Positions 2,340 to 54,860 of a stretch of 64,000 nucleotides of DNA are shown one piece after another. The notes under the pieces are model-generated. The model saw nothing but the letters and a program-made list of their open reading frames with translations. It did no database searches and had not been told where the DNA came from. The translations under genes were made by a program, and so were the position numbers. Numbering within the stretch: the stretch's first letter is position 1; every line of letters begins with the position of its first letter. The stretch comes from Pseudoxanthomonas kaohsiungensis (lineage in GTDB: Bacteria > Pseudomonadota > Gammaproteobacteria > Xanthomonadales > Xanthomonadaceae), in the NCBI RefSeq assembly GCF_010211765.1, contig NZ_PDWO01000010.1, positions 62,001 to 126,000 on the forward strand, in the 5' to 3' direction.

Positions 2340-5300
2340 ATGTCGAACCGTCCGACCTGCGCCCGTGCGCGCAGCGCCGCTCCACGTCCGTCGCACCGAA
2401 TCAACCACTCCGCGCTCACCTTGGGCGTCGCCCTGGCGCTGGCGGCCGGCACGCTTCAGGCGCAGGAGGCGAATGCGCCGTCCGGCGGGCAGGAGGCGGA
2501 CGCTGCGACCACCGAGCTCCAGGCGGTGGAGGTCAAGGGCATCCGCGGCTCGGTGATGCGCGCCCAGGACATCAAGCAGGATGCCGCGCAGATCGTCGAC
2601 TCGGTGACCGCCGAAGACATCGGCGCGCTGCCCGACCGCTCGGTCACCGAGACCCTCAAGCGCGTCAGCGGCGTGACCGTCACCGGATTCGCCGCGCGCG
2701 ACGATACCGACCACTTCTCCGCCGAAGGCAGCGGCGTGATGATCCGCGGCCTGACCTTCGTGCGCGGCGAGCTCAACGGACGCGACATCTTCAGCGCCGC
2801 CGGCGGCCGCGGCATCAGCTTCGAGGAGGTGTCGGCCGAACTGATGGCCGGCGTCGACGTCTACAAGAACCCGTCGGCCGAGATCATCGAGGGCGGCCTT
2901 GGCGGCACGATCAACCTGCGCACGCGCAAGCCGTTCGACGAACCCGGCCGCAAGGTCGCCGGCAGCATCGACTACAACTACGGCGACAAGGCCAAGGACG
3001 CGCGGCCGTCGGCCTCGTTCCTGTTCAGCGATCGCTGGCAGACCGGTTTTGGCGAGATCGGCGCGCTGGCCAACGTCTTCTATTCCGAACTGGCGACCCG
3101 TTCGGACGGCGTCCAGGTCATGCCTTTCGACCGCCGCGGCCGCAAGCCGGCCGAACAGACCGAAGGCTCGGAAACCGACTGGGTGTACGACTGGGACCAG
3201 GGGTCCTGGCAGTCGGCCGAATCCCAGCGCGACGCACTGCTGGCCGGCACCGACCTGGGCCAGGTGTTCGTGCCCGGCGGCGCCAACTGGCGGCGTACCG
3301 ATTTCGAGCGCAAGCGCCAGGGCGGCGCGTTCGCGCTGCAGTGGCGGCCGAACGACAGCACCGAGGTCTACACCCAGTTCATCACCTCGCAGTACGACAT
3401 GACCTGGCGCGAGCACTTCATGGAGTTCGGTGGTGCTTCGCAGAAGAACCAGCCCAACTGGAATGGCGACCCGGACCACTTCAATCCGATCTACGCCGAC
3501 GGCCTGGCCGACATGAGCAACAACCTGATCCCGGCGGTCGGCACCCAGTTCGTCTACGACAGCCGCGGCCGCTTCATCAAGGGCACGGTGCGGCAGGGCG
3601 GCTGGCTCGGCCAGCCGTCGGACCTGGACAACGGCAACCCCGGCGTCTACCAGGGCAACTCCGGCATCCAGTTCATCAGCGGCAACCGCGTCAACGAACA
3701 GACCTCCAAGACCACCGACTGGTCCACCGGCTTCCAGCACTTCATCACCGACAACCTGATCATCCGCGGCGACTACCAGTACGTGAAGGCGGAGGCGAGC
3801 AACGTCGACTTCTCGGTCCACGCCTCGACCCTGCTGCAGGAGATGACCCTCGACCTGAGCGGCAAGTATCCGTCGGTCAGCGTCGCCGACCCGTCCACCG
3901 TCACCGACCAGCGCAACTACTTCTGGCGTTCGGCGATGGACCACATCGCCGACAGCGAGGGCACCGAGCACGCCGCCCGCGTGGACCTGGAGTACACCTT
4001 CCAGGACAGCAACTGGCTGCAGTTCGTGCGCTTCGGCGCGCGCATCGCCGACCGCAGCTACGACAACCTGTCCACCGGCTGGAACTGGGGCGTCATCAGC
4101 GACGACTGGAACAAGCTCACCGGAACCCCGGCCGACCCGGCCCGCGCCAACGTCGCCTGGCTGGACCAGTTCTATTCCAACGATTCGACCCTGTACACGA
4201 TGAAGGACTTCTTCGGCGGCAAGGCCGACGTGCCGACCACGTTCTGGTCGCCGAAGGACGGCATGGTCGACATCGCCACCGTGGCCGCCACCCTGGGCCA
4301 GCTGCCCGGGGCGCGGTGGGCGCCGATCGAGTACGGACCGGAGAGCACCAATACCCAGGACGAACGCACCCAGGCCGCCTACGGCGTGCTGTACTTCGGC
4401 AACGACGCGATGGAGCGTCCGCTCGACGGCAACATCGGCGTGCGCGTGGTCCAGACCAGCGTCGATACGCTCGGCGGCGGGGTGATGCCGGACATGTCCA
4501 GCTGGGCCGACGTGGTGACGCCCGACGTACTGGAGCGGTACGCCGGCCAGGGTTTCACCACCGATACCCGGACCACCTACACCGACGTGCTGCCGAGCCT
4601 GAACCTGCGCATGCGCTTCGACCATGGCGTGCAGTGGCGCTTCGCCGCGTCCAAGGCGATCGCGCGGCCGGAGTTCCGCCTGATGCAGGCCTGGTTGCCG
4701 CTGTCGGCCAGCGCGTCGGCATGCCAGCAGGCGCTGGACGACGGGCTGCGGACCGAGCTTTGCGGGCCCTCCGACCTGTCCTTCACCGGCAGCGGCGGCA
4801 GCCCGGACCTGAAGCCGATGCGCGCCAACCAGTTCGACACCGCGCTGGAATGGTACTTCGGCCCGGCCAACATGCTGTACGCGACGTTCTTCTACAAGGA
4901 CATCAAGGACTACTTCGCCAACCAGGCCGGCACCGAGCTCATCTTCGGCGACGAATACCTGATCACCCGTCCGCGCAACCTGGACGAGGGCAGGATCCGC
5001 GGCTACGAGGTGGGCTACTCGCAGTTCTTCGACTTCCTGCCGGGCTTCGGCGTGCAGGCCAACTACACCTTCGTCGACAGCAGCGGCGGCACCAATGCCG
5101 CGGTCGGGGTCCCGAACGGCAGCGCCGCGCGTGCCGGCACGGTCGAGCTGCCGCTGGAGGGCCTGTCCGAGCACTCGTACAACGTCATCGGCATCTACGA
5201 GACCAGCCGCTTCTCGGCCCGCCTGGCCTACAACTGGCGCAGCGAGTACCTGCTGACCAGCAGCGACGCGATCGTGTTCCTGCCGGTCTGGAACGACGAC

Positions 5301-5510
5301 TACGGCCAGCTGGACGGATCGTTCTTCTACAACATCAACAAGAACTTCCAGATCGGCCTGCAGGTGAACAACCTGACCAACAGCATCACCAAGCTGCTGG
5401 TCGGGCCGCGCAAGTACCTGCGCGACGGCTACGAGGACGACACCCTGTACAGCCGTGCCTGGTTCGAGAACGACCGCCGCTACTCGGCCGTGCTCCGCGC
5501 CAGCTGGTAA
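2340..5510 (+). CDS. TonB-dependent receptor, xyloglucan oligosaccharide uptake (first copy)
   Basis: A 1056-residue outer-membrane receptor. It has a long N-terminal signal region ending near GTLQAQ (about residue 42), a TonB-box-like stretch ELQAVEVKGIR (about 59-69), a plug domain starting with DSVTAEDIGALPDRSVTETL, and a large beta-barrel ending in RASW with a C-terminal aromatic residue for barrel assembly. The size and the DIGALPDRSVTETL plug match the carbohydrate-linked receptors common in Xanthomonadaceae. Context with GH74/31/35/95 suggests import of xyloglucan oligosaccharides into the periplasm. It has its own promoter, palindromic operator, a GGGGAGGGAA ribosome binding site and its own terminator. 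The substrate is inferred from neighbours. Confidence 0.9.
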   Translation: MSNRPTCARARSAAPRPSHRINHSALTLGVALALAAGTLQAQEANAPSGGQEADAATTELQAVEVKGIRGSVMRAQDIKQDAAQIVDSVTAEDIGALPDRSVTETLKRVSGVTVTGFAARDDTDHFSAEGSGVMIRGLTFVRGELNGRDIFSAAGGRGISFEEVSAELMAGVDVYKNPSAEIIEGGLGGTINLRTRKPFDEPGRKVAGSIDYNYGDKAKDARPSASFLFSDRWQTGFGEIGALANVFYSELATRSDGVQVMPFDRRGRKPAEQTEGSETDWVYDWDQGSWQSAESQRDALLAGTDLGQVFVPGGANWRRTDFERKRQGGAFALQWRPNDSTEVYTQFITSQYDMTWREHFMEFGGASQKNQPNWNGDPDHFNPIYADGLADMSNNLIPAVGTQFVYDSRGRFIKGTVRQGGWLGQPSDLDNGNPGVYQGNSGIQFISGNRVNEQTSKTTDWSTGFQHFITDNLIIRGDYQYVKAEASNVDFSVHASTLLQEMTLDLSGKYPSVSVADPSTVTDQRNYFWRSAMDHIADSEGTEHAARVDLEYTFQDSNWLQFVRFGARIADRSYDNLSTGWNWGVISDDWNKLTGTPADPARANVAWLDQFYSNDSTLYTMKDFFGGKADVPTTFWSPKDGMVDIATVAATLGQLPGARWAPIEYGPESTNTQDERTQAAYGVLYFGNDAMERPLDGNIGVRVVQTSVDTLGGGVMPDMSSWADVVTPDVLERYAGQGFTTDTRTTYTDVLPSLNLRMRFDHGVQWRFAASKAIARPEFRLMQAWLPLSASASACQQALDDGLRTELCGPSDLSFTGSGGSPDLKPMRANQFDTALEWYFGPANMLYATFFYKDIKDYFANQAGTELIFGDEYLITRPRNLDEGRIRGYEVGYSQFFDFLPGFGVQANYTFVDSSGGTNAAVGVPNGSAARAGTVELPLEGLSEHSYNVIGIYETSRFSARLAYNWRSEYLLTSSDAIVFLPVWNDDYGQLDGSFFYNINKNFQIGLQVNNLTNSITKLLVGPRKYLRDGYEDDTLYSRAWFENDRRYSAVLRASW

Positions 5511-5528
5511 GACAACGCAACGGATGGA

Positions 5529-5563
5529 GGGCCCGTGCCGGAAGGCGCGGGCCCTTCTTTTTT
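5529..5563 (+). terminator. Intrinsic terminator after first receptor
   Basis: An 11-bp stem (GGGCCCGTGCC pairing with GGCGCGGGCCC, one G-T pair) with a GGAA loop is followed by TTCTTTTTT. It lies 18 bases after the receptor stop codon. The remaining part of the 307-base gap up to the next gene holds the second receptor's promoter and operator-like site. Confidence 0.85.
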
Positions 5564-5594
5564 CGCGCCGGTTTCCTGACTCGACGCGACTGGG

Positions 5595-5638
5595 CTTGAA
5601 TAAGTCACCGGTAAACATATTCCTTCACGGCATAGATC
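5595..5638 (+). promoter_or_regulatory. Promoter and shared box upstream of second TonB receptor
   Basis: CTTGAATAAGTCACCGG (5595-5611) matches the box before the GH74 gene at 13 of 17 positions. A possible -10 (CATAGAT) lies 17-19 bases after the CCGGTA that occupies the -35 position. The element sits 207 bases before the ATG at 5818, leaving a long 5' leader that contains the operator-like site at 5734. Confidence 0.45.
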
Positions 5639-5733
5639 CCCCCGAATTCTTCATTGGCAATCCGTGACGCAGCGCGCCTAAGGTGGCCGCCGGGAGTTCC
5701 AGCCCGGCAGGCCTCGATGGGCGATCCATCGGA

Positions 5734-5747
5734 TGACAGCGCTGGTC
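5734..5747. promoter_or_regulatory. Partial LacI-type operator match in leader of second receptor
   Basis: TGACAGCGCTGGTC shares the AGCGCT centre and the left half TGA-AGCGC of the perfect palindrome at 2254-2271. Only the inner CAGCGCTG is symmetric. Its similar position (71 bases before the start codon; the first site ends 69 bases before its gene) supports it more than its sequence does. Confidence 0.35.
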
Positions 5748-5817
5748 CATTCCGCCGCCGGCACCGCCGGCCTACAACTCGAAGATTCGAAAGTCAGTGT
5801 CCTGGGAGGGAACAGTG

Positions 5818-8793
5818 ATGCCGAAATACCCGCTCCGCGGCGGCGCCGTGTCGCGCCTGCCTGCCCACCTCGCCCGTTCGGCCCTGGCCCTGGGCATCGC
5901 CCTGGCCCTGCCGGTCGGCGTGCTCCACGCCCAAGAACAGGCTGCCGCCGAGAATGCGGACAGCAGTACGACCGACGAGAGCGCGCCAGTGGAACTGGAC
6001 GCGGTGCAGGTCCAGGGTATCCGCGCCAGCGTCATGCGCGCCCAGGACATCAAGCGCGACGCCGACACCTTCGTCGACTCGGTCACCGCGCAGGACATCG
6101 GCGCGCTGCCGGACCGCAGCGTCACCGAGACCCTGTCGCGCATTCCCGGCGTCACCATCGACCGCTTCCTGGCGGTCGGCGACCCGGAGCACTTCTCCGC
6201 CGAGGGCAACGGCGTGCAGGTCCGCGGCCTCACCCAGGTCCGCTCGGAGCTCAACGGGCGCGACAGCTTCTCGGCCTCCGGCGGCCGTGGCCTCAGCTTC
6301 CAGGACGTGCCGTCCGAGCTGATGGCCGGCGTCGACGTGTTCAAGAACCAGACCGCCGAGATGATCGAAGGCGGCCTGGGCGGCACGGTGAACCTGCGTA
6401 CCCGCCTGCCATTCGACTTCGAGGGCGAGAAGCTCGCCGCCAGCTTCAGCGTCAACAACGGCGACTTCGCCGACAAGACCAGCCCGTCGGCCTCGGTCCT
6501 GTACAGCAACCGCTGGAACACCGGCGCCGGCGACTTCGGCATCCTGGTCGACCTGGCCCGCTCGGACCTGGCGACCCGCACCGACGGCATGTTCGTCCGC
6601 CCGTTCTTCAACAACAGCAACGCCGACATCGACGGAGACGGCGCCAACGACGAGGCCTGGGTGCCGCGTGGCGCCGACTGGCGCACGCTGAACTACGACC
6701 GCAGGCGTTCCGGCGCCTACCTGGCCATGCAGTGGCGGCCCAACGACGACATCGAGGTCGTCGCCACCGCCTTCCAGAGCGAGTACAACGAGCTCTGGAA
6801 CGAGGACGCGATCTTCGTCGACAACGATCCGACCCAGGTCGCGCTCGACACCAGCCAGCCGTTCGAGCTGGATGGCAACGTGTTCCGCTCCGGCCGCATC
6901 ATCCAGCCGGGCGGCGTGCCGATGGGCACGGACATCCGTGCGTCCAACCGCGACTCCAAGACCACCGACTTCTCCGCCGGCCTGAAGTGGACGGTCAACG
7001 ACAACGTGGAGCTGTCGACCGACCTGCAGTACATCAAGGCCGACACCAAGAGCCTGGATTCGACGGTGGCGCTGGGCCTGCTGATGCCGTACATCGACGT
7101 CGACCTCACCGGCGGCCTGCCGTCGATCAGCGTCGACCAGCAGTTCACCGCGAACCCCGACAACTACTACTGGGGGTTCACGATGGACCACCAGGACGAC
7201 AACGAGGCGGACCAGCTCGCCTGGCGGGCGGACATCAAGTACAGCTTCGACAGCGGCTTCTTCCGCTCGATCCGGGGCGGCGTGCGCACCACCCGGCGCG
7301 ACGCGACCAGCATCGACACCGGCTACAACTGGGCGGCGGTGATCCAGCCCTGGATGCAGTGGTGGCAGTTGCCTGGCGGCGTGCCGCTGCCGGGCCTGGA
7401 CCTGAGCAGCGACGTCAATTCCAGCCTGACCCACTTCAACGAGTTCAAGAACTTCTACCGCGGCGACGCGAACACGCCGGGCGGCTTCTATGCGCCGATC
7501 CTGGCCACGGCGCTCGGATACCCGGGCAGCTACCAGGCCATCCACGCGGCGGCCGAGGAGTACTACATCAATCCGGGCGGTTTCACTCCCTACACGCCAA
7601 TGCTTCCGGGGCCGCAGCACACCAACGAGCAGGAGGAGTCCACCAACGGCGGCTACCTGATGCTCAACTTCGGCCTGGACGACGTGGCGTTCGACGGCAA
7701 CGTCGGCGTGCGCGTGGTGCGCACCGAGAATTCCGCCAAGGGCTACGTGGTGTTCCCGAACCAGGCCTACGCGCCGTTCCTGGGCAGCGGCCAGTCCGAG
7801 CCGGTCTCGGCCGAGAACTCCTACACCGACGTGCTGCCCAGCCTGAACATGCGCTGGGAAGCGATGACGAACGTGATCTTCCGTTTCGCCGCGTCCAAGG
7901 CCATCGCGCGCCCGGCCTTCAGCGACATGCAGGCCTACCAGATCCTCAATGTCAGCCGCCGCGACTTCGACGACGCCGGCAACGCCTGCCCGGACGTGCC
8001 GGTGGCCTCGCTCGAATGCCTCGACCTGACCGGCAGCTCCTACGACAACCCGTACCTGGAGCCGATGAAGGCCAACCAGTTCGACCTGTCGGCGGAGTGG
8101 TACTTCGATCCCGACCACGGCGGCATGGCCTGGGTGAACCTGTTCTACAAGGACATCAAGGACTACTTCCGCCGCCAGACACAGGAGGTTCCGTTCCCCG
8201 GCGCGGACGGCAACACGTACGACTACCTGATCAGCCGCCCGGTGAACGTGGGTACGGCGGAGATCCGCGGCGCGGAACTGGGCTGGAACCAGTTCTTCGA
8301 TTTCCTGCCCGAGCCGTTCGACGGCTTCGGCATGTCGGCCAACTACACCTACATCGACAGCTCCACCGAGGTGCCCAACAACATCGACGTGCAGCCGGTC
8401 GATACCGACGGCTCGACCTTCGACGACCTGCCGGCCGATGGCCTGTCGAAGAACGCGTTCAACCTCGCCGCGTTCTACGAGAAGGGCCCGTGGCAGGTGC
8501 GCCTGGCCTACAACTGGCGCAGCAAGTACCTGCTCTCGGTGGGGCCCAACGGCTACAACGGCAACAACAACAACATCGTCTGGAAGTTGCCGGTGTATAG
8601 CGACGACTACGGCCAGCTCGATGGCTCGGTCTTCTACCGGATCAGCGACAACCTGCAGATCGGCCTGGAGATGAACAACCTCAACAACGCCGAGCAGCGC
8701 ACGATCATGGACCAGAACGAGGCCGGCAGCCGTGTCACCTCGTGGTACGTGAACGACCGTCGCTATGCGGCGACCATCCGCCTGACGTTCTGA
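5818..8793 (+). CDS. TonB-dependent receptor, xyloglucan oligosaccharide uptake (second copy)
   Basis: A 991-residue receptor, paralogue of the preceding gene. The signal peptide ends near GVLHAQE (about residue 39). A TonB-box-like VELDAVQVQGIRASV follows, then a plug with DIGALPDRSVTETLSRIPGV and a barrel ending IRLTF with terminal phenylalanine. The ATG at 5818 is preferred over an in-frame GTG at 5797 because GGGAGGGAA lies just before it, exactly as at the other genes of the locus. Shared blocks (FFYKDIKDYF-like, AYNWRSKYLL, SDDYGQLDGS) show descent from a duplication. The two copies probably accept different oligosaccharides or act together. Substrate is inferred from context. Confidence 0.9.
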   Translation: MPKYPLRGGAVSRLPAHLARSALALGIALALPVGVLHAQEQAAAENADSSTTDESAPVELDAVQVQGIRASVMRAQDIKRDADTFVDSVTAQDIGALPDRSVTETLSRIPGVTIDRFLAVGDPEHFSAEGNGVQVRGLTQVRSELNGRDSFSASGGRGLSFQDVPSELMAGVDVFKNQTAEMIEGGLGGTVNLRTRLPFDFEGEKLAASFSVNNGDFADKTSPSASVLYSNRWNTGAGDFGILVDLARSDLATRTDGMFVRPFFNNSNADIDGDGANDEAWVPRGADWRTLNYDRRRSGAYLAMQWRPNDDIEVVATAFQSEYNELWNEDAIFVDNDPTQVALDTSQPFELDGNVFRSGRIIQPGGVPMGTDIRASNRDSKTTDFSAGLKWTVNDNVELSTDLQYIKADTKSLDSTVALGLLMPYIDVDLTGGLPSISVDQQFTANPDNYYWGFTMDHQDDNEADQLAWRADIKYSFDSGFFRSIRGGVRTTRRDATSIDTGYNWAAVIQPWMQWWQLPGGVPLPGLDLSSDVNSSLTHFNEFKNFYRGDANTPGGFYAPILATALGYPGSYQAIHAAAEEYYINPGGFTPYTPMLPGPQHTNEQEESTNGGYLMLNFGLDDVAFDGNVGVRVVRTENSAKGYVVFPNQAYAPFLGSGQSEPVSAENSYTDVLPSLNMRWEAMTNVIFRFAASKAIARPAFSDMQAYQILNVSRRDFDDAGNACPDVPVASLECLDLTGSSYDNPYLEPMKANQFDLSAEWYFDPDHGGMAWVNLFYKDIKDYFRRQTQEVPFPGADGNTYDYLISRPVNVGTAEIRGAELGWNQFFDFLPEPFDGFGMSANYTYIDSSTEVPNNIDVQPVDTDGSTFDDLPADGLSKNAFNLAAFYEKGPWQVRLAYNWRSKYLLSVGPNGYNGNNNNIVWKLPVYSDDYGQLDGSVFYRISDNLQIGLEMNNLNNAEQRTIMDQNEAGSRVTSWYVNDRRYAATIRLTF

Positions 8794-22403: not shown

Positions 22404-22478
22404 TGGCGCTCCCTAGGGGACTCGAACCCCTGTTTTAGCCTTGAGAGGGCCACGTCCTAACCACTAGACGAAGGGAGC
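22404..22478 (-). tRNA. tRNA-Glu (anticodon CUC)
   Basis: On the minus strand a full cloverleaf is visible. The acceptor stem is GCTCCCT with AGGGAGC, followed by discriminator G and an encoded CCA. The D arm is GTCTAGTGGTTAGGAC, the anticodon loop CTCTCAA within the stem TGGCC/GGCTA, and the T arm CAGGGGTTCGAGTCCCCTA-like. The anticodon CTC reads GAG glutamate codons, very frequent in this high-GC genome. It faces the porter gene across a terminator. Confidence 0.95.
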
Positions 22479-50457: not shown

Positions 50458-50979
50458 TCACGGGCAGTGTTCGGGGCGCATGTCCCAGACCACCGGCTCC
50501 CAGTAGGCGTTGTCGCGGATGCTGTCGGCGTCGAGCCGGTCGCGCAGCAGCTTCGCCCCGATCGCGTAGCTGACACCGGGTTGCACGTCGAGCTCGACCT
50601 TCTTGTACGCGCGCTGCTGCTCGAGCCGCTTCATCTTCGAGATCTGCGCATTCGCCGCGGCCGGCACCCGCTTGGGGTCGATCCGGTCGGCAATGGTCAG
50701 CACGTGCGCGCCCGGTTCGACCGGATACCGGTTCCTGCGGCCCGACGGGGTGCTGTCGCCATCGATCTGGGTGATGGTCGCGTCGAAGATGTCGCGGCTT
50801 TCGGGGATCTCGCCCTGGCTCACGGTCAGGTAGGCACAGGTGCTGGACGGATCGGCAGCGGGCGCCGGCGGGGCGGCCGCGGGACTGGCCGGCGGCGCGC
50901 TGGCTGTCGTGGCGGCCTGCGGGCCGGCGAAGGCGGCGGAAGCGAGAAGGACGGTCGACAACATGGTCATGCGCAACAT
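50458..50979 (-). CDS. Exported YWEPVVW-family protein, member 1 (unknown function)
   Basis: A 173-residue protein I do not recognise. The start at 50979 (MLRMTMLSTVLLASAAFAG) gives a signal peptide and follows GGAG; longer starts would precede it with an unlikely proline-rich stretch. The mature part has an Ala/Pro linker, a first cysteine (STCAYL), a segment IFDATITQIDG, a basic helix (AQISKMKRLEQQRAYK), then PGVSYAIGAKLLRDRL and the ending SIRDNAYWEPVVW with a final cysteine. Two conserved cysteines suggest a disulfide. It is 76 percent or so alike with member 2 over the C-terminal 60 residues by eye. Confidence 0.7.
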   Translation of the reverse strand: MLRMTMLSTVLLASAAFAGPQAATTASAPPASPAAAPPAPAADPSSTCAYLTVSQGEIPESRDIFDATITQIDGDSTPSGRRNRYPVEPGAHVLTIADRIDPKRVPAAANAQISKMKRLEQQRAYKKVELDVQPGVSYAIGAKLLRDRLDADSIRDNAYWEPVVWDMRPEHCP

Positions 50980-51141
50980 GGTGGTTTCTCCGGACGGAGG
51001 GTCCGGCGGCGTGGGCGCGGCGTCGCCCATCCGCGCCGGACGGCGCAATTTCGCCGGAAACCCGGCCCCGGGAAATAGGCCTTGGGGCCAATGCGGCGGC
51101 GCTGCACGTCCCGTCCGCGGGGATTGCGTGCCGCCTGCCGC

Positions 51142-51621
51142 TCAGGGGCAGGGCTCGGCGCGCTCCTCCCAGACCACCGGTTCCCAGTAGGCGTTGTCAC
51201 GGATGCTCTGCGCATCGAGGCGGTCGCGCAGCAGCCGCGCGCCGATGGCATAGCTCACGCCGGGCTCCACCTTGACCGTGAACGGCTTGTACGCACGCTG
51301 CAGCTCGAGCCGCTTCATCTTCGCGATCTGCGAGACCGCCGCGCCCGGCAGCCGGTGCGGGTCGATGTGGTCGGTGACGGTCAGCACGCGCTCTCCTGGC
51401 TGCACCGAATGGCGGCTGCGCGCATCCAGGGGCGTGCTGCGTCCGTCGATGCGGGTGATCTCGACCGGGAAGATGTCCTGGCTCTTGGGGATGGTGGCGC
51501 GCTGGTCGGTGACATAACCGCATGTACTGCCCGCGGCACCGACTACCGGCGCAGGTGGGTTGCCGCTGGCATGGGCATGGCCCGCCAGCAGGATCGAGGT
51601 GGCCAGGATGTGACGCAACAT
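51142..51621 (-). CDS. Exported YWEPVVW-family protein, member 2 (unknown function)
   Basis: A 159-residue paralogue of member 1. Signal peptide MLRHILATSILLAGHAHASG, first cysteine in STCGYV, IFPVEITRIDG, helix AQIAKMKRLELQRAYK-like, then PGVSYAIGARLLRDRL and SIRDNAYWEPVVW with terminal Cys-Pro. A 162-base gap separates it from member 1 and a 242-base gap from the PDZ gene, so members 1 and 2 may have own promoters in addition to operon readthrough. Confidence 0.7.
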   Translation of the reverse strand: MLRHILATSILLAGHAHASGNPPAPVVGAAGSTCGYVTDQRATIPKSQDIFPVEITRIDGRSTPLDARSRHSVQPGERVLTVTDHIDPHRLPGAAVSQIAKMKRLELQRAYKPFTVKVEPGVSYAIGARLLRDRLDAQSIRDNAYWEPVVWEERAEPCP

Positions 51622-51863
51622 GGTGTGTTCCTCCGTTGGGTGCGCGACCGTGCGTGGGGCGCGCGGGGGCGGCAAGCCGCATCGTTGGGCCGTGCTGCAC
51701 TTCCGGAAAGGGTCGCCAGCATGGTCAAGCGTTTCCTGTGATTTCCGGTTTGGCGGGGAGTCGCCTGGCAACGGGATGGTCATGCGAGCGGTGATCGGAG
51801 CGTTGTCGGCCTTAAACCAGCGTGAAGCGCGCCCTGGCGGCTGGCCCCCGTGCGGCGCCGGTG

Positions 51864-52640
51864 TCAGGGACATGCTTCCTTCAGCGATTGCCAGACGAAC
51901 GGAACCCAGCCTGCACCGGCGACGGGCTTCGCACCGACGTAGTAGATCGTGTCCGGTTCGACGTCCAGCACGAAGGCTTTGGACTGGTAGCTGGACAACG
52001 GACGCGTCGCCGGCTGCGGGACGCGCTCGCGGGTGATGATCGCGCGGGTGCCGGCCGGCACGGCATGGCGTTGTCCGCCGGGCAGCGGCACGCTGCGGCC
52101 CTCGATCTGGGTGATGTCCAGCGCGCGTACGTCGCTGCTCGCCGGCAGGCCCTCGATCGTGCCGACGACCTTGCCGCAGCGGGTACCGGCCGGCGCGCGG
52201 CGCGGGTCCGCCGTGCCGGTGATCCGTATCGGCTGGCCGCCGCGCACCAGTTCCACGTCCAGGCCGCCATTGCCGGCAGCGAGTGCACGGCTCAACGCCT
52301 CGGCCGGCCGCGCCACGCCGGCCAGTGCCTGCCCGTTGATCGATTGCAGGCGGTCTCCCGCGCGCAATCCCGCGCGTTCGGCGGCCGCGCCCGGGGTAAC
52401 CGCCAGCACCCGCAGGCCGGCGGGATCGGACCGGCGTACGTCGATCACCGCGCCGAGGTCGAACGCGGCGGCAGTCGCCTGGCGCGCCGTCTGCGCCATC
52501 GCCTGGCCGGCGATCGTGCCGCACCCGCACAGCAGGGCCAGCAGGCAGGCCCTCGGCAGGCCTGCGCGCCATCGCATCCGGTCTTCGCCGCCCTTGCGGC
52601 GGGGAAGCGGGCACGGCCGCAAAAAGGGTTGGTGGGTCAT
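51864..52640 (-). CDS. Exported PDZ-domain protein with related C-terminal domain
   Basis: A 258-residue protein. A hydrophobic export signal (ACLLALLCGCGTIAGQAMA, about 31-49; an LLCGC sequence could be a lipobox) is followed by a PDZ domain (about 65-145: GLRVLAVTPGAAAERAGLRAGDRLQSINGQAL). The rest shares the layout of the YWEPVVW family: cysteine in GTRCGKV, ALDITQIEGRSVPL, then VEPDTIYYVGAK, GWVPFVW and a final Cys-Pro. It is therefore a PDZ fusion to a diverged copy of the same domain. No protease domain is present. The start at 52640 follows GGGAAA. Confidence 0.72.
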   Translation of the reverse strand: MTHQPFLRPCPLPRRKGGEDRMRWRAGLPRACLLALLCGCGTIAGQAMAQTARQATAAAFDLGAVIDVRRSDPAGLRVLAVTPGAAAERAGLRAGDRLQSINGQALAGVARPAEALSRALAAGNGGLDVELVRGGQPIRITGTADPRRAPAGTRCGKVVGTIEGLPASSDVRALDITQIEGRSVPLPGGQRHAVPAGTRAIITRERVPQPATRPLSSYQSKAFVLDVEPDTIYYVGAKPVAGAGWVPFVWQSLKEACP

Positions 52641-52651
52641 CGCGTTTCCCC

Positions 52652-53176
52652 TCAGCGGCATTCGCGCGGCACTTCTTCCCAGACCACCGGCTCCCAGTAC
52701 GCGTTGTCGCGGATGGAGCCGGTGTCCAGGTGGTCGCGGCGCAGGCGGACGCCTACGCGTTGCAGCGTGTCGGCGCGCACATCCACCAGCAGGGGCTTGA
52801 AGTAGCCGGTGAAATCCTTGCGCCGCCGCATCTTGTCGATCTGGGCCTGTTGCGCGGTGCCCAGGTGGGCGCGCGGGATCGCCTCGGCCACGACCAGCAG
52901 GTGCTTGCCCGGCTGCAGGCGGTAGCCCTCTCGTACCAGGCGCGGCCGTTCGCCGTTGATCTGCATGATGTGGCCGGGATAGATGTCCATGCTCTCGGGC
53001 GTGGCGGCCGTGCCGGCGCCGACGATGCCGCAGGCCTCGTCGGCGCCGGGCGTGTCCGGATCGAGCGCGGGCGCCAGCGCCGGCACGATGCCTGCCTGCG
53101 CGTGGACAGGCCCGGCCACTGCCAGCGCGAAGGCCAGGGTGATCCGCAGAAGCCGCCGGCACGGGTCCTGGCGCAT
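52652..53176 (-). CDS. Exported YWEPVVW-family protein, member 3 (unknown function)
   Basis: A 174-residue paralogue. Signal peptide LLRITLAFALAVAGPVHA, first cysteine in EACGIV, IYPGHIMQINGERPRL, basic helix QIDKMRRRKDF, and the ending SIRDNAYWEPVVWEE with terminal Cys-Arg. It is the first of the four exported genes after the anti-sigma-like gene (13 bases) and is followed after 11 bases by the PDZ gene, so sigma factor, anti-sigma and these two are almost certainly one operon. Confidence 0.72.
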   Translation of the reverse strand: MRQDPCRRLLRITLAFALAVAGPVHAQAGIVPALAPALDPDTPGADEACGIVGAGTAATPESMDIYPGHIMQINGERPRLVREGYRLQPGKHLLVVAEAIPRAHLGTAQQAQIDKMRRRKDFTGYFKPLLVDVRADTLQRVGVRLRRDHLDTGSIRDNAYWEPVVWEEVPRECR

Positions 53177-53189
53177 GGTGATCTCCGTG

Positions 53190-53585
53190 TCAGATTTCGT
53201 TGACGTTCGAGGCGCCGTCGCGCGGCGCGTGGTGCTGCACGAGCAGGGCACGGCGCGCCTCCCACAGGGGGGCTACTTCGTCGTCGCTGGCACCACGCTC
53301 GTAGGCCGTCTGCAGCGCCTGGTCGAGCGCGCGCACCCGCTCGTCGGTGCCATGCCCGGCAAGGACAGGCGGCTGCGCGGCCGGATCTGGCGACCGCGTG
53401 GGCCGGTCCGGCCAGGCGGACACCAGCAGCAATGCCGCCAGCGCGGTCGAAGCCAGGCCGGTGCCGATGCGTCGCCGGCGCAACTGCCGGCGACGCTGCT
53501 CGCGGACCCGTGGCCACAGCGAATCCGGGACGGGCGCTTCGGGCATGCTTTCCAGCAGGCGCTGGAGTTGCTCAGGATCGTTCAT
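53190..53585 (-). CDS. Anti-sigma-factor-like membrane protein
   Basis: A 131-residue protein. A short N-terminal cytoplasmic part (NDPEQLQRLLESMPEAPVPDSLWPRVREQRRRQLRRRR) leads to one transmembrane helix (GTGLASTALAALLLVSAWP) and a periplasmic helical region (ERVRALDQALQTAYERGASDDEVAPLWEARRALL). It overlaps the sigma gene by 14 bases. This size, topology and position are typical of anti-sigma factors. No zinc-binding HxxxCxxC motif is present, so it would be a non-ZAS type. Function inferred from position. Confidence 0.65.
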   Translation of the reverse strand: MNDPEQLQRLLESMPEAPVPDSLWPRVREQRRRQLRRRRIGTGLASTALAALLLVSAWPDRPTRSPDPAAQPPVLAGHGTDERVRALDQALQTAYERGASDDEVAPLWEARRALLVQHHAPRDGASNVNEI

Positions 53586-54120
53586 TGCCTGTTCCCGGTT
53601 CCAGGTGGCCGCGCAGCCGCGACAACGAGCGCGAGAGGATCGATTTGGACCAGCTGGGACTGCGTCCGAAGCGGTGCGCCAGCTCCTCGTGCGACCAGCC
53701 TTCCATCTCGTGCAGCCAGACCAAGGTACGGGCGACGGGTGGCAACCGTCGCAACAGCCCATCGGCTTCGGCCACCGTCGCCGGCGACGGCCCGTCGTCC
53801 AGGGCGTGCAACAACGCATCGTCGTCGGCGTGGTGGCGGCCGCGGCGCAGGCGGTCGATGGCCAGGTTGGCGGCCACGCGCTTGAGCCACGGACGCAGGG
53901 GAGTGTCTTCGCGCAGGCCCGACAGGAAGCCGAACATGCGCAGGAAGGTGTCCTGGACGATGTCTTCCGCTGCGGCCGCGTCGCCTGTCAGGCGGAAGGC
54001 CAGGGCATGGATGGCGCGCGCATGGCCGTGGTACAGCGCTTCGAACGCGGTTTCGTCGCCGCGACGGGCGCGGCGCAGCAACGCCGGTTCGGTGGTTTCG
54101 CCCTTCGCAGCTTCGTCCAT
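53572..54120 (-). CDS. ECF-type RNA polymerase sigma factor
   Basis: A 182-residue sigma-70 family protein with region 2 (LYHGHARAIHALAFRLTGDAAAAEDIVQDTFLRMF, then PWLKRVAANLAIDRLRRGR) and region 4 (LPPVARTLVWLHEMEGWSHEELAHRFGRSPSWSKSILSRSLSRLR). Regions 1 and 3 are missing, as in the extracytoplasmic function class. The ATG at 54120 gives the usual N-terminus although no strong ribosome binding site is seen. Expected to drive its own operon including the exported YWEPVVW proteins, controlled by the overlapping anti-sigma-like protein. Confidence 0.88.
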   Translation of the reverse strand: MDEAAKGETTEPALLRRARRGDETAFEALYHGHARAIHALAFRLTGDAAAAEDIVQDTFLRMFGFLSGLREDTPLRPWLKRVAANLAIDRLRRGRHHADDDALLHALDDGPSPATVAEADGLLRRLPPVARTLVWLHEMEGWSHEELAHRFGRSPSWSKSILSRSLSRLRGHLEPGTGNERS

Positions 54121-54158
54121 TGACAGGTGGTACGCGCGGGAACGCGGTTCCGTCGCAC

Positions 54159-54860
54159 TCAAGCCGACGGCGCGCGCAGTTGGCGGTCCAGGGCGAGCAG
54201 GCGTTCGGGCGTGCCGACGTCGGTCCACTGGCCCGCATGGTGCTCGCCGGTCACCGCGCCCCGGGCCATGGCCCGGCGCAGCAGCGGCGCGAGGCGGAAG
54301 CGCGGCGGCGTGCCGGGTTCGCCCTCCACGGTGTCGCGCCAATCCTTGAGCACGCCGGCACGGTAGACGCCGATGCCCGAGTAGGTAAGGCGCGGCGCTC
54401 CGGCGGCGGTGACGCCACCGGCCGGATCGAGGCCGAAATCGCCCTCCGGGTGGTGCACGGGGTTGTCCACCAGCACCAGGTGCGCGTCGCCCCGCGGCTC
54501 GCGCGGCAGCGCGGCGAAGTCGCAGTCGGTCCAGATGTCGCCGTTGACGGCGAGGAACGGCGCGTCGCCCAGCAGCGGCAGCGCGTGCAGCATGCCGCCG
54601 CCGGTTTCCAGGGGCACCGGGCCTTCGTAGCTGTAGTGCAGGCGCAGTCCCCAGCGCGCCCCGTCGCCGAGCACCTCGGGGAAGCGCTGCGCCAGCCAGG
54701 AGGTGTTGACGACGACCTCGGTCACGCCCATCGCCGCGAGTTTCTCCAGGTGCCAGGCGATCAGCGGCTTGCCGCCGGCTTCCAGCAACGGCTTGGGCGT
54801 GTGGTCGGTGAGCGGGCGCATGCGCTCGCCCAGGCCGGCGGCGAAGACCAGGGCACGCAT
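54159..54860 (-). CDS. murU: N-acetylmuramate alpha-1-phosphate uridylyltransferase
   Basis: A 233-residue nucleotidyltransferase. Signature MRALVFAAGLGERMRPLTDHTPKPLLEAGGKPL, then ETGGGMLHALPLLGDAPFLAVNGDIWTD with the metal-binding aspartate, and a short C-terminus. Coupling to an aminoglycoside-phosphotransferase-like kinase (AmgK) one base upstream identifies the pair as the MurNAc recycling branch that bypasses de novo UDP-MurNAc synthesis and gives intrinsic fosfomycin tolerance in Pseudomonas. Confidence 0.9.
   Translation of the reverse strand: MRALVFAAGLGERMRPLTDHTPKPLLEAGGKPLIAWHLEKLAAMGVTEVVVNTSWLAQRFPEVLGDGARWGLRLHYSYEGPVPLETGGGMLHALPLLGDAPFLAVNGDIWTDCDFAALPREPRGDAHLVLVDNPVHHPEGDFGLDPAGGVTAAGAPRLTYSGIGVYRAGVLKDWRDTVEGEPGTPPRFRLAPLLRRAMARGAVTGEHHAGQWTDVGTPERLLALDRQLRAPSA

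Follow-up and report, generated by a model that had tools for sequence, protein, structure and literature searches.

Within a 64,000-nt stretch of the Pseudoxanthomonas kaohsiungensis genome (RefSeq assembly GCF_010211765.1, contig NZ_PDWO01000010.1, positions 62,001 to 126,000 of the forward strand; hereafter the window), six minus-strand genes were confirmed to encode, in order of transcription, an extracytoplasmic function (ECF) sigma factor, a putative single-pass anti-sigma factor and four exported proteins, which we designate FAM1, PDZ-FAM, FAM2 and FAM3 (Table 1). An earlier note on this DNA had described a sigma factor, an overlapping one-helix anti-sigma-like protein and four exported proteins lying in one direction, and all of these were found where it had placed them. 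The alignment bore out that the three exported proteins it had named share a first cysteine, a helix, a strand, the YWEPVVW ending and a last cysteine, and its statement that they form a family without a name held (no Pfam or NCBIfam family spans the common domain, here called FAM). Its three-member family was correct for the proteins named and incomplete in extent, since the fourth exported protein proved to be a further member, composed of a PDZ and a FAM domain. Overlooked were PDZ-FAM as a conserved partner, the anti-sigma tail, a second promoter motif within the sigma coding sequence and, as a candidate target, the gene of a Sel1-like protein. Visual inspection served to call the signal peptides and the one membrane helix; the start codon of PDZ-FAM is uncertain (alternative ATG at 52577), and for FAM3 the ATG at 50979 was preferred over upstream starts because it yields a signal peptide.

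Table 1. Features of the operon and their positions in the window (PWM, position weight matrix score; pLDDT, predicted local distance difference test)
Feature	Positions	Strand	Basis
ECF sigma factor, 182 aa	53572-54120	-	PF04542 E 7.3e-16, PF08281 E 6.5e-9
Putative single-pass anti-sigma factor, 131 aa, ending ...NVNEI	53190-53585	-	14-nt overlap with the sigma gene
FAM1, exported, PDZ-less, 174 aa	52652-53176	-	Homology to FAM3, shared features
PDZ-FAM, exported; PDZ at aa ~62-141, divergent FAM at aa 153-258	51864-52640	-	Pfam PDZ, profile homology
FAM2, exported, PDZ-less, 159 aa	51142-51621	-	Homology; domain model pLDDT 94.0
FAM3, exported, PDZ-less, 173 aa	50458-50979	-	Homology, shared features
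Promoter motif P1, TGCGACG-N16-CGTA, 5' of the sigma ATG	54126-54160	-	PWM 18.1
Motif copy P2, within the sigma gene, 5' of the anti-sigma gene	53722-53756	-	PWM 21.5
Last five anti-sigma codons (NVNEI), candidate PDZ ligand	53193-53207	-	Tail enrichment in homologues

The sigma, anti-sigma and PDZ triad

The sigma factor possesses only Sigma70 regions 2 and 4 (both Pfam matches above cut-off) and scores 62.7 bits against TIGR02937 (cut-off 42.9), as is characteristic of the ECF type; it is not an RpoE of the Escherichia coli type, for which the TIGR02939 equivalog demands 236.15 bits (54.9 obtained). The product of the overlapping gene has one hydrophobic stretch, gives no Pfam match at E <= 1 and only weakly resembles the putative anti-sigma family NF010501 (E 0.002), and we regard it as a putative single-pass anti-sigma factor, the predicted periplasmic part of which comprises a conserved short helix, a linker variable in both length and sequence, and a tail. 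The dedicated ECF sigma factor with a putative one-helix anti-sigma factor, as proposed in the earlier note, is supported, and an ECF-like promoter motif precedes the operon.

PDZ-FAM matched the PDZ families PF17820 (E 2e-9) and PF00595 (E 3.1e-7), and its model (pLDDT 83.8) retrieved by Foldseek the PDZ-bearing chains of RseP, DegP, HtrA and Ctp (best E 4.9e-5). Since Pfam shows only PDZ in it and no trypsin-like protease domain, it is not an HtrA/DegS protease; nor do the exported proteins belong to RseB/MucB, as FAM1, FAM2 and FAM3 gave no Pfam match at E <= 1 and PDZ-FAM matched PDZ families only. Outside the lineage of the window, the common layout consists of the sigma factor, the anti-sigma factor and one protein of ~260-335 residues with a PDZ and a FAM domain. 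Among 50 loci found with an anti-sigma profile (30 returned as loci and 20 hand-chosen, from 95 matches; those remaining outside loci already collected were nearly all weaker than ~E 1e-8), a downstream same-strand PDZ open reading frame (ORF) was present in 50 and the sigma gene lay upstream in 49, the last locus being cut by a contig edge. Over all distinct cases, the PDZ gene stood 3' of the anti-sigma gene in 98/98 and the ECF sigma gene upstream in 96/98 (the other two at contig edges). Ten further triad PDZ proteins submitted to Pfam all contained a PDZ domain above cut-off, neither they nor PDZ-FAM had a protease domain by Pfam, and the serine-protease motif G[NDS]SGG was found in 0/98 triad PDZ proteins. 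A FAM match was absent from 12 of the 50 loci, all of which kept the PDZ domain, which makes the latter the constant part of the triad. The remainder of the protein varies: in L278 (L and G numbers are our labels for loci and genomes) it has 172 residues with one PDZ domain and nothing else above the Pfam cut-off, and in L284, L286, L291 and L292 it has two PDZ stretches (Pfam). Elsewhere in the window's genome, no such PDZ gene or related anti-sigma gene was found within 1.5 kb of the sigma genes inspected (7 of 11 other sigma matches).

As observed on the side, L284-L289 and L291-L294 hold a related triad without a FAM match, in which the exported protein has ~350-415 residues in the cases read, the anti-sigma tail ends in L or F in 7/10, and the string MIRDTSAQD recurs near the start of a neighbouring gene (L286, L287 and L293).

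In 96 anti-sigma homologues the final residue was Ile in 46, Leu in 19, Val in 1, Met in 2 and Phe in 2, so that 70/96 ended in I/L/V/M/F (44/58 after clustering at 50% identity), as compared to 8.7% (0.9% for Ile) among 424 other called proteins of loci L070-L109. The most frequent endings were -TRI and -VRI; the ligand pattern of class I PDZ domains is S/T-x-hydrophobic. The hydrophobic tail is a possible PDZ ligand and is treated below as a candidate for that role.

With regard to distribution, the anti-sigma profile matched 78/398 genomes of the order of the window's genome (Lysobacterales; Xanthomonadales in its GTDB lineage) at E <= 1e-5, with 95 matches in total (~12 within loci already collected), and 7/369 genomes of a class-wide draw; of four matches outside the order, three were accompanied by both sigma and PDZ genes and one (L350) by a sigma gene only. 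FAM matches occurred in 58/299 genomes of the order and in 10/369 of the class-wide draw (7 of them outside the order and weak). The 62 loci with the FAM motif belonged to Lysobacterales, Pseudidiomarina, Idiomarina, Kangiellaceae, Shewanella, Glaciecola, Arsukibacterium and other Gammaproteobacteria, and a related anti-sigma gene adjoined FAM in 52 of them; in a set of 40 loci overlapping these 62, about a quarter had neither sigma nor anti-sigma gene beside FAM. Judged by gene order and profile matches, the triad of sigma factor, anti-sigma factor and exported PDZ protein is a conserved unit in Lysobacterales and some other Gammaproteobacteria. Four of the FAM genes without an anti-sigma neighbour (L165, L167, L168 and L183) are from Shewanella, encode a FAM protein of ~150 residues and show no sigma or anti-sigma profile match within 10 kb. 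The triad was not described in the titles and abstract openings returned by a full-text literature search (the sigma factor may already bear an ECF group number), and PDZ is not mentioned in the retrieved part of PMC7406223.

Promoter motifs and candidate targets

The motif TGC[GA]AC[GC]-N16-CGT is present shortly 5' of the sigma start in 40/49 sigma loci of the order (including a small number that we ourselves placed there) and in 0/18 outside it, P1 being itself one of the 40 sites on which the weight matrix was trained. By eye, many Pseudidiomarina loci in the range L160-L187 share a different sequence before the sigma gene (TGTCACA ... GTTGCATCTT).

The second copy, P2, is located 404 bp beyond P1 and was scored with a matrix for which upstream sites alone had served as the training set; an internal motif recurs in 28 of the order's 49 loci. 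Among 25 family rows picked by hand, sigma residue 122 is encoded by CGA wherever it is Arg (17/17) and by CAA wherever it is Gln (7/7; one row has Leu), both codons preserving TGC[GA]AC across the Arg to Gln change, and residue 129 is encoded by CGT in 24/25 rows; when every Arg codon in the 25 rows is counted, these sites included, CGC occurs most often (301/557), with CGA used 55 and CGT 59 times. The rows are related and therefore do not represent independent events, and the spacing of the P2 motif is set by the reading frame. As judged from these codon choices, P2 is held within the sigma coding sequence by unusual codons, and the direct reading is that of an internal promoter which would provide extra anti-sigma factor and exported proteins. 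The internal site is absent from L083 (same family) and L151 (Lysobacteraceae), both outside the 25 rows. No motif with a PWM score >= 15 preceded FAM2, FAM3 or the orphan FAM genes; a sigma-70 promoter scan of the operon returned none, and terminator-like sites numbered 1 vs 1.9 expected.

The strict pattern had three matches in the whole genome, namely P1, P2 and one before the gene of an exported Sel1-like protein. In a comparison that read 30 of 48 Sel1 matches, with positions taken relative to protein matches because the gene calls are wrong in some loci (L222 and L223), the orthologue had a site 10-42 nt 5' of its aligned start in 8/14 sigma-bearing genomes (PWM 14.3-24.8), and in these 8 the best match began by residue 31 with an identity of at least 56%. 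Among sigma-less genomes 8/12 had a Sel1-like homologue, of which only those of G011 and G006 were close orthologues; G006 had no site (3.3) and the six other than G011 and G006 scored below 3.3. We consider the link between the Sel1 site and the presence of the sigma factor to be suggestive. Furthermore, in an adjacency scan of 130 loci (some of them not triads), Sel1-like genes adjoined the triad in L141 (Luteimonas mephitis, just downstream; positions 5209-7987) and L278 (upstream; positions 191-904). In L190 the link of a Sel1-like exported protein to the sigma factor is by the promoter motif (1498-1532).

DUF3016 was tried and rejected as a general regulon member (site in 2/13 sigma-bearing genomes that possess the gene, G265 and G204, with 7.0 in G683, and in 0/12 sigma-less ones). 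In individual loci the motif precedes a DUF4136 lipoprotein (L227, from G252) and DUF3016 proteins (L229 and L234, from G204 and G265), and two further exported families with sites appear recurrent by eye (L226 and L233; L228, L231 and L232).

The FAM domain

A six-frame search of the window's genome with FAM3 recovered FAM2 (E 7.8e-54) and FAM1 (2.7e-30), both well outside what chance would give, and PDZ-FAM weakly (0.0014). In a blastp comparison of 186 domains, that of PDZ-FAM matched FAM2 (31% identity, E 2.2e-15); it was still recovered at 2.2e-8 by a reduced 49-domain profile, from which the window rows and every row blastp-similar to it (E 1e-4) had been taken out; on these two grounds we count four members in the operon. 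Comparisons of FAM with Pfam, NCBIfam and PDB sequences yielded nothing significant, the weak profile similarities to DUF2846 (4/22, best E 0.0027) and PEGA (3/22, best E 0.061) included, and FAM is set apart from both by the cysteines at either limit and by its YWEPVVW ending. The FAM2 domain model (pLDDT 94.0, predicted TM-score 0.86) is mainly beta with one long helix, and Foldseek found no PDB match for it at E <= 0.001. In a VIA fold comparison the best Z was 5.4 (8jl4, and also a human HGSNAT entry), followed by 5.2 to AlgF over 72 residues; such scores fall within the range of common arrangements, and we therefore neither claim a fold nor call one new.

In a tree of 57 chosen domains, the deep branches of which are long and weakly supported, the FAM2- and FAM3-type copies of the genus cluster together (13 rows, support 99/98), as do the FAM1-type copies together with related Pseudoxanthomonas (9 rows, 100/99); the PDZ-linked copies of the genus make up a single clade that evolves fast (6 rows, 100/98). 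This topology fits a domain duplication in which PDZ was lost and after which the PDZ-linked copy diverged, and the tandem copies that lack PDZ are for the most part an expansion in the lineage of the window. In two genomes of the same genus (G006 and G011) a single FAM gene is kept at this chromosomal position; it has no adjacent sigma gene, and neither genome gave an anti-sigma match anywhere. Outside the order, L118 contains a distant lipoprotein-like ORF with an IDG ... WEPVV core, which suggests a wider superfamily around the FAM domain.

A proposed PDZ reader of the anti-sigma factor and its alternatives

We judge it slightly better than an even chance that the locus is a conserved, autoregulated envelope signalling module, in which the exported PDZ protein reads the C-terminus of the anti-sigma factor. 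There is good support, at the level of sequence features, for both the module and its promoter motifs; from them we infer PDZ reading of the anti-sigma C-terminus as the best mechanism, together with promoter activity, the effect on proteolysis, the nature of the signal and the role of the FAM domain. According to this mechanism, the single-pass anti-sigma factor would hold the ECF sigma factor, and the exported PDZ protein, having no protease domain, would most likely dock on the anti-sigma C-terminus and either shield the anti-sigma factor or present it to proteases, such that sigma activity would follow the state of the envelope. Sensing or partner binding would fall to the FAM domain that is joined to PDZ, and the three PDZ-less copies would likely act as decoys, sensors or effectors, the PDZ-linked copy having diverged. 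Freed sigma factor would transcribe the whole operon from P1 and also, elsewhere, the gene of a Sel1-like exported protein, and P2 would add anti-sigma factor and exported proteins as a negative feedback. More tentatively, at somewhat under an even chance, ECF control may be exerted here in a new mode, by an operon-encoded, exported, non-proteolytic PDZ adaptor that reads a conserved PDZ ligand at the anti-sigma end. Beyond its PDZ domain this adaptor would carry FAM, another PDZ or nothing, depending on the signal, and an internal promoter in the sigma gene would supply extra inhibitor as feedback.

Known envelope-stress circuits sense misfolded proteins via protease-linked PDZ domains. The module resembles RpoE/RseA/RseB (AlgU/MucA/MucB) in that one operon encodes an ECF sigma factor, a single-pass anti-sigma factor (putative here) and an exported regulator (for the RpoE system, PMC8103513); it differs in its sigma factor (far below the RpoE score, as given above) and in its conserved third protein, which is a PDZ protein, mostly with FAM. 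With DegS/HtrA and RseP it shares the structural type of the PDZ domain (Foldseek), but the triad PDZ protein has no protease domain (11 scanned) and is encoded beside one sigma/anti-sigma pair.

Several observations weigh against the PDZ-reader interpretation. As many as 26/96 anti-sigma tails do not end in I/L/V/M/F, with the PDZ gene nevertheless retained (most Pseudidiomarina, several Luteimonas and Lysobacter, and a few Pseudoxanthomonas), and an Asp-for-Gly change in the PDZ loop occurs in four polar-tail loci (L081, L145, L146 and L267) and also in L086, the tail of which is NDI; we take the correlation between loop and tail to be suggestive only. The anti-sigma profile was built from triads found through FAM together with L241/L242, so that the triad test is not fully independent, and weak matches mostly fell outside the sample. 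The conserved neighbourhood expected by the earlier note stands for the 52 loci mentioned above and fails in 10/62, in which FAM is an orphan with no anti-sigma gene (L128, L140, L150, L153, L155, L156, L165, L167, L168 and L183). The internal site is missing from 21/49 loci, and the counts of the strict pattern in 25 genomes do not exceed a reversed-pattern control (69 vs 114); as there is no genome-wide excess, it is position and recurrence alone that support the targets. Moreover, the Sel1 site was not found in 6/14 sigma-bearing genomes (in five the Sel1 match begins only at residue 53 or later, and in G265 it has 35% identity), the site of the sigma-less G011 (14.9) falls between those of the weakest sigma-bearing genomes (G683, 14.3; G256, 15.3), and the Sel1 gene adjoining the triad of L278 has no motif (best 6.3).

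Among the alternatives, the one that fares best, which we still hold to be unlikely, is that the hydrophobic tail constitutes a degron for a general tail-specific or DegS-like protease, the PDZ protein of the operon being a mere response target or chaperone. DegS does use its own PDZ domain to read protein C-termini in the envelope (PMC8103513), yet a general protease would leave unexplained the 98/98 association of the PDZ gene with the anti-sigma gene and the lack of a protease domain in the 11 proteins scanned. With a lower probability still, we would class as improbable the proposal that FAM and PDZ-FAM proteins are response effectors (envelope chaperones or inhibitors), co-transcribed and outside sensing: the occurrence of PDZ-less FAM copies and orphan FAM genes, and the motif shared with the Sel1-like gene in 8/14 sigma-bearing genomes, agree with it, but the PDZ gene accompanies the anti-sigma gene without FAM in 12/50 loci, and PDZ-type ends are over-represented among the anti-sigma tails. 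Highly improbable is a thiol-redox or metal sensor in which the FAM cysteine pair (the first invariant and the last at least 90% conserved in 84 aligned domains, one preceding the model's first strand and the other following its last) would form a switchable disulfide or metal site, since a structural disulfide is equally likely in the periplasm and the FAM columns that are invariant or almost so include neither His nor Met. The metal or inhibitor response that the earlier note had envisaged found no support here.

If the PDZ-reader interpretation is correct, the triad, a widespread sigma operon, would connect a PDZ reader with transcription by a route of its own, through a PDZ protein that has no protease domain and an anti-sigma tail resembling its ligand. 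It gives a context to the uncharacterised exported FAM domain. A promoter, an internal promoter for feedback (both predicted) and a candidate target come with it.

Apart from the operon, a tRNA gene at positions 22407-22478 was the sole Rfam match above the gathering score in the window.

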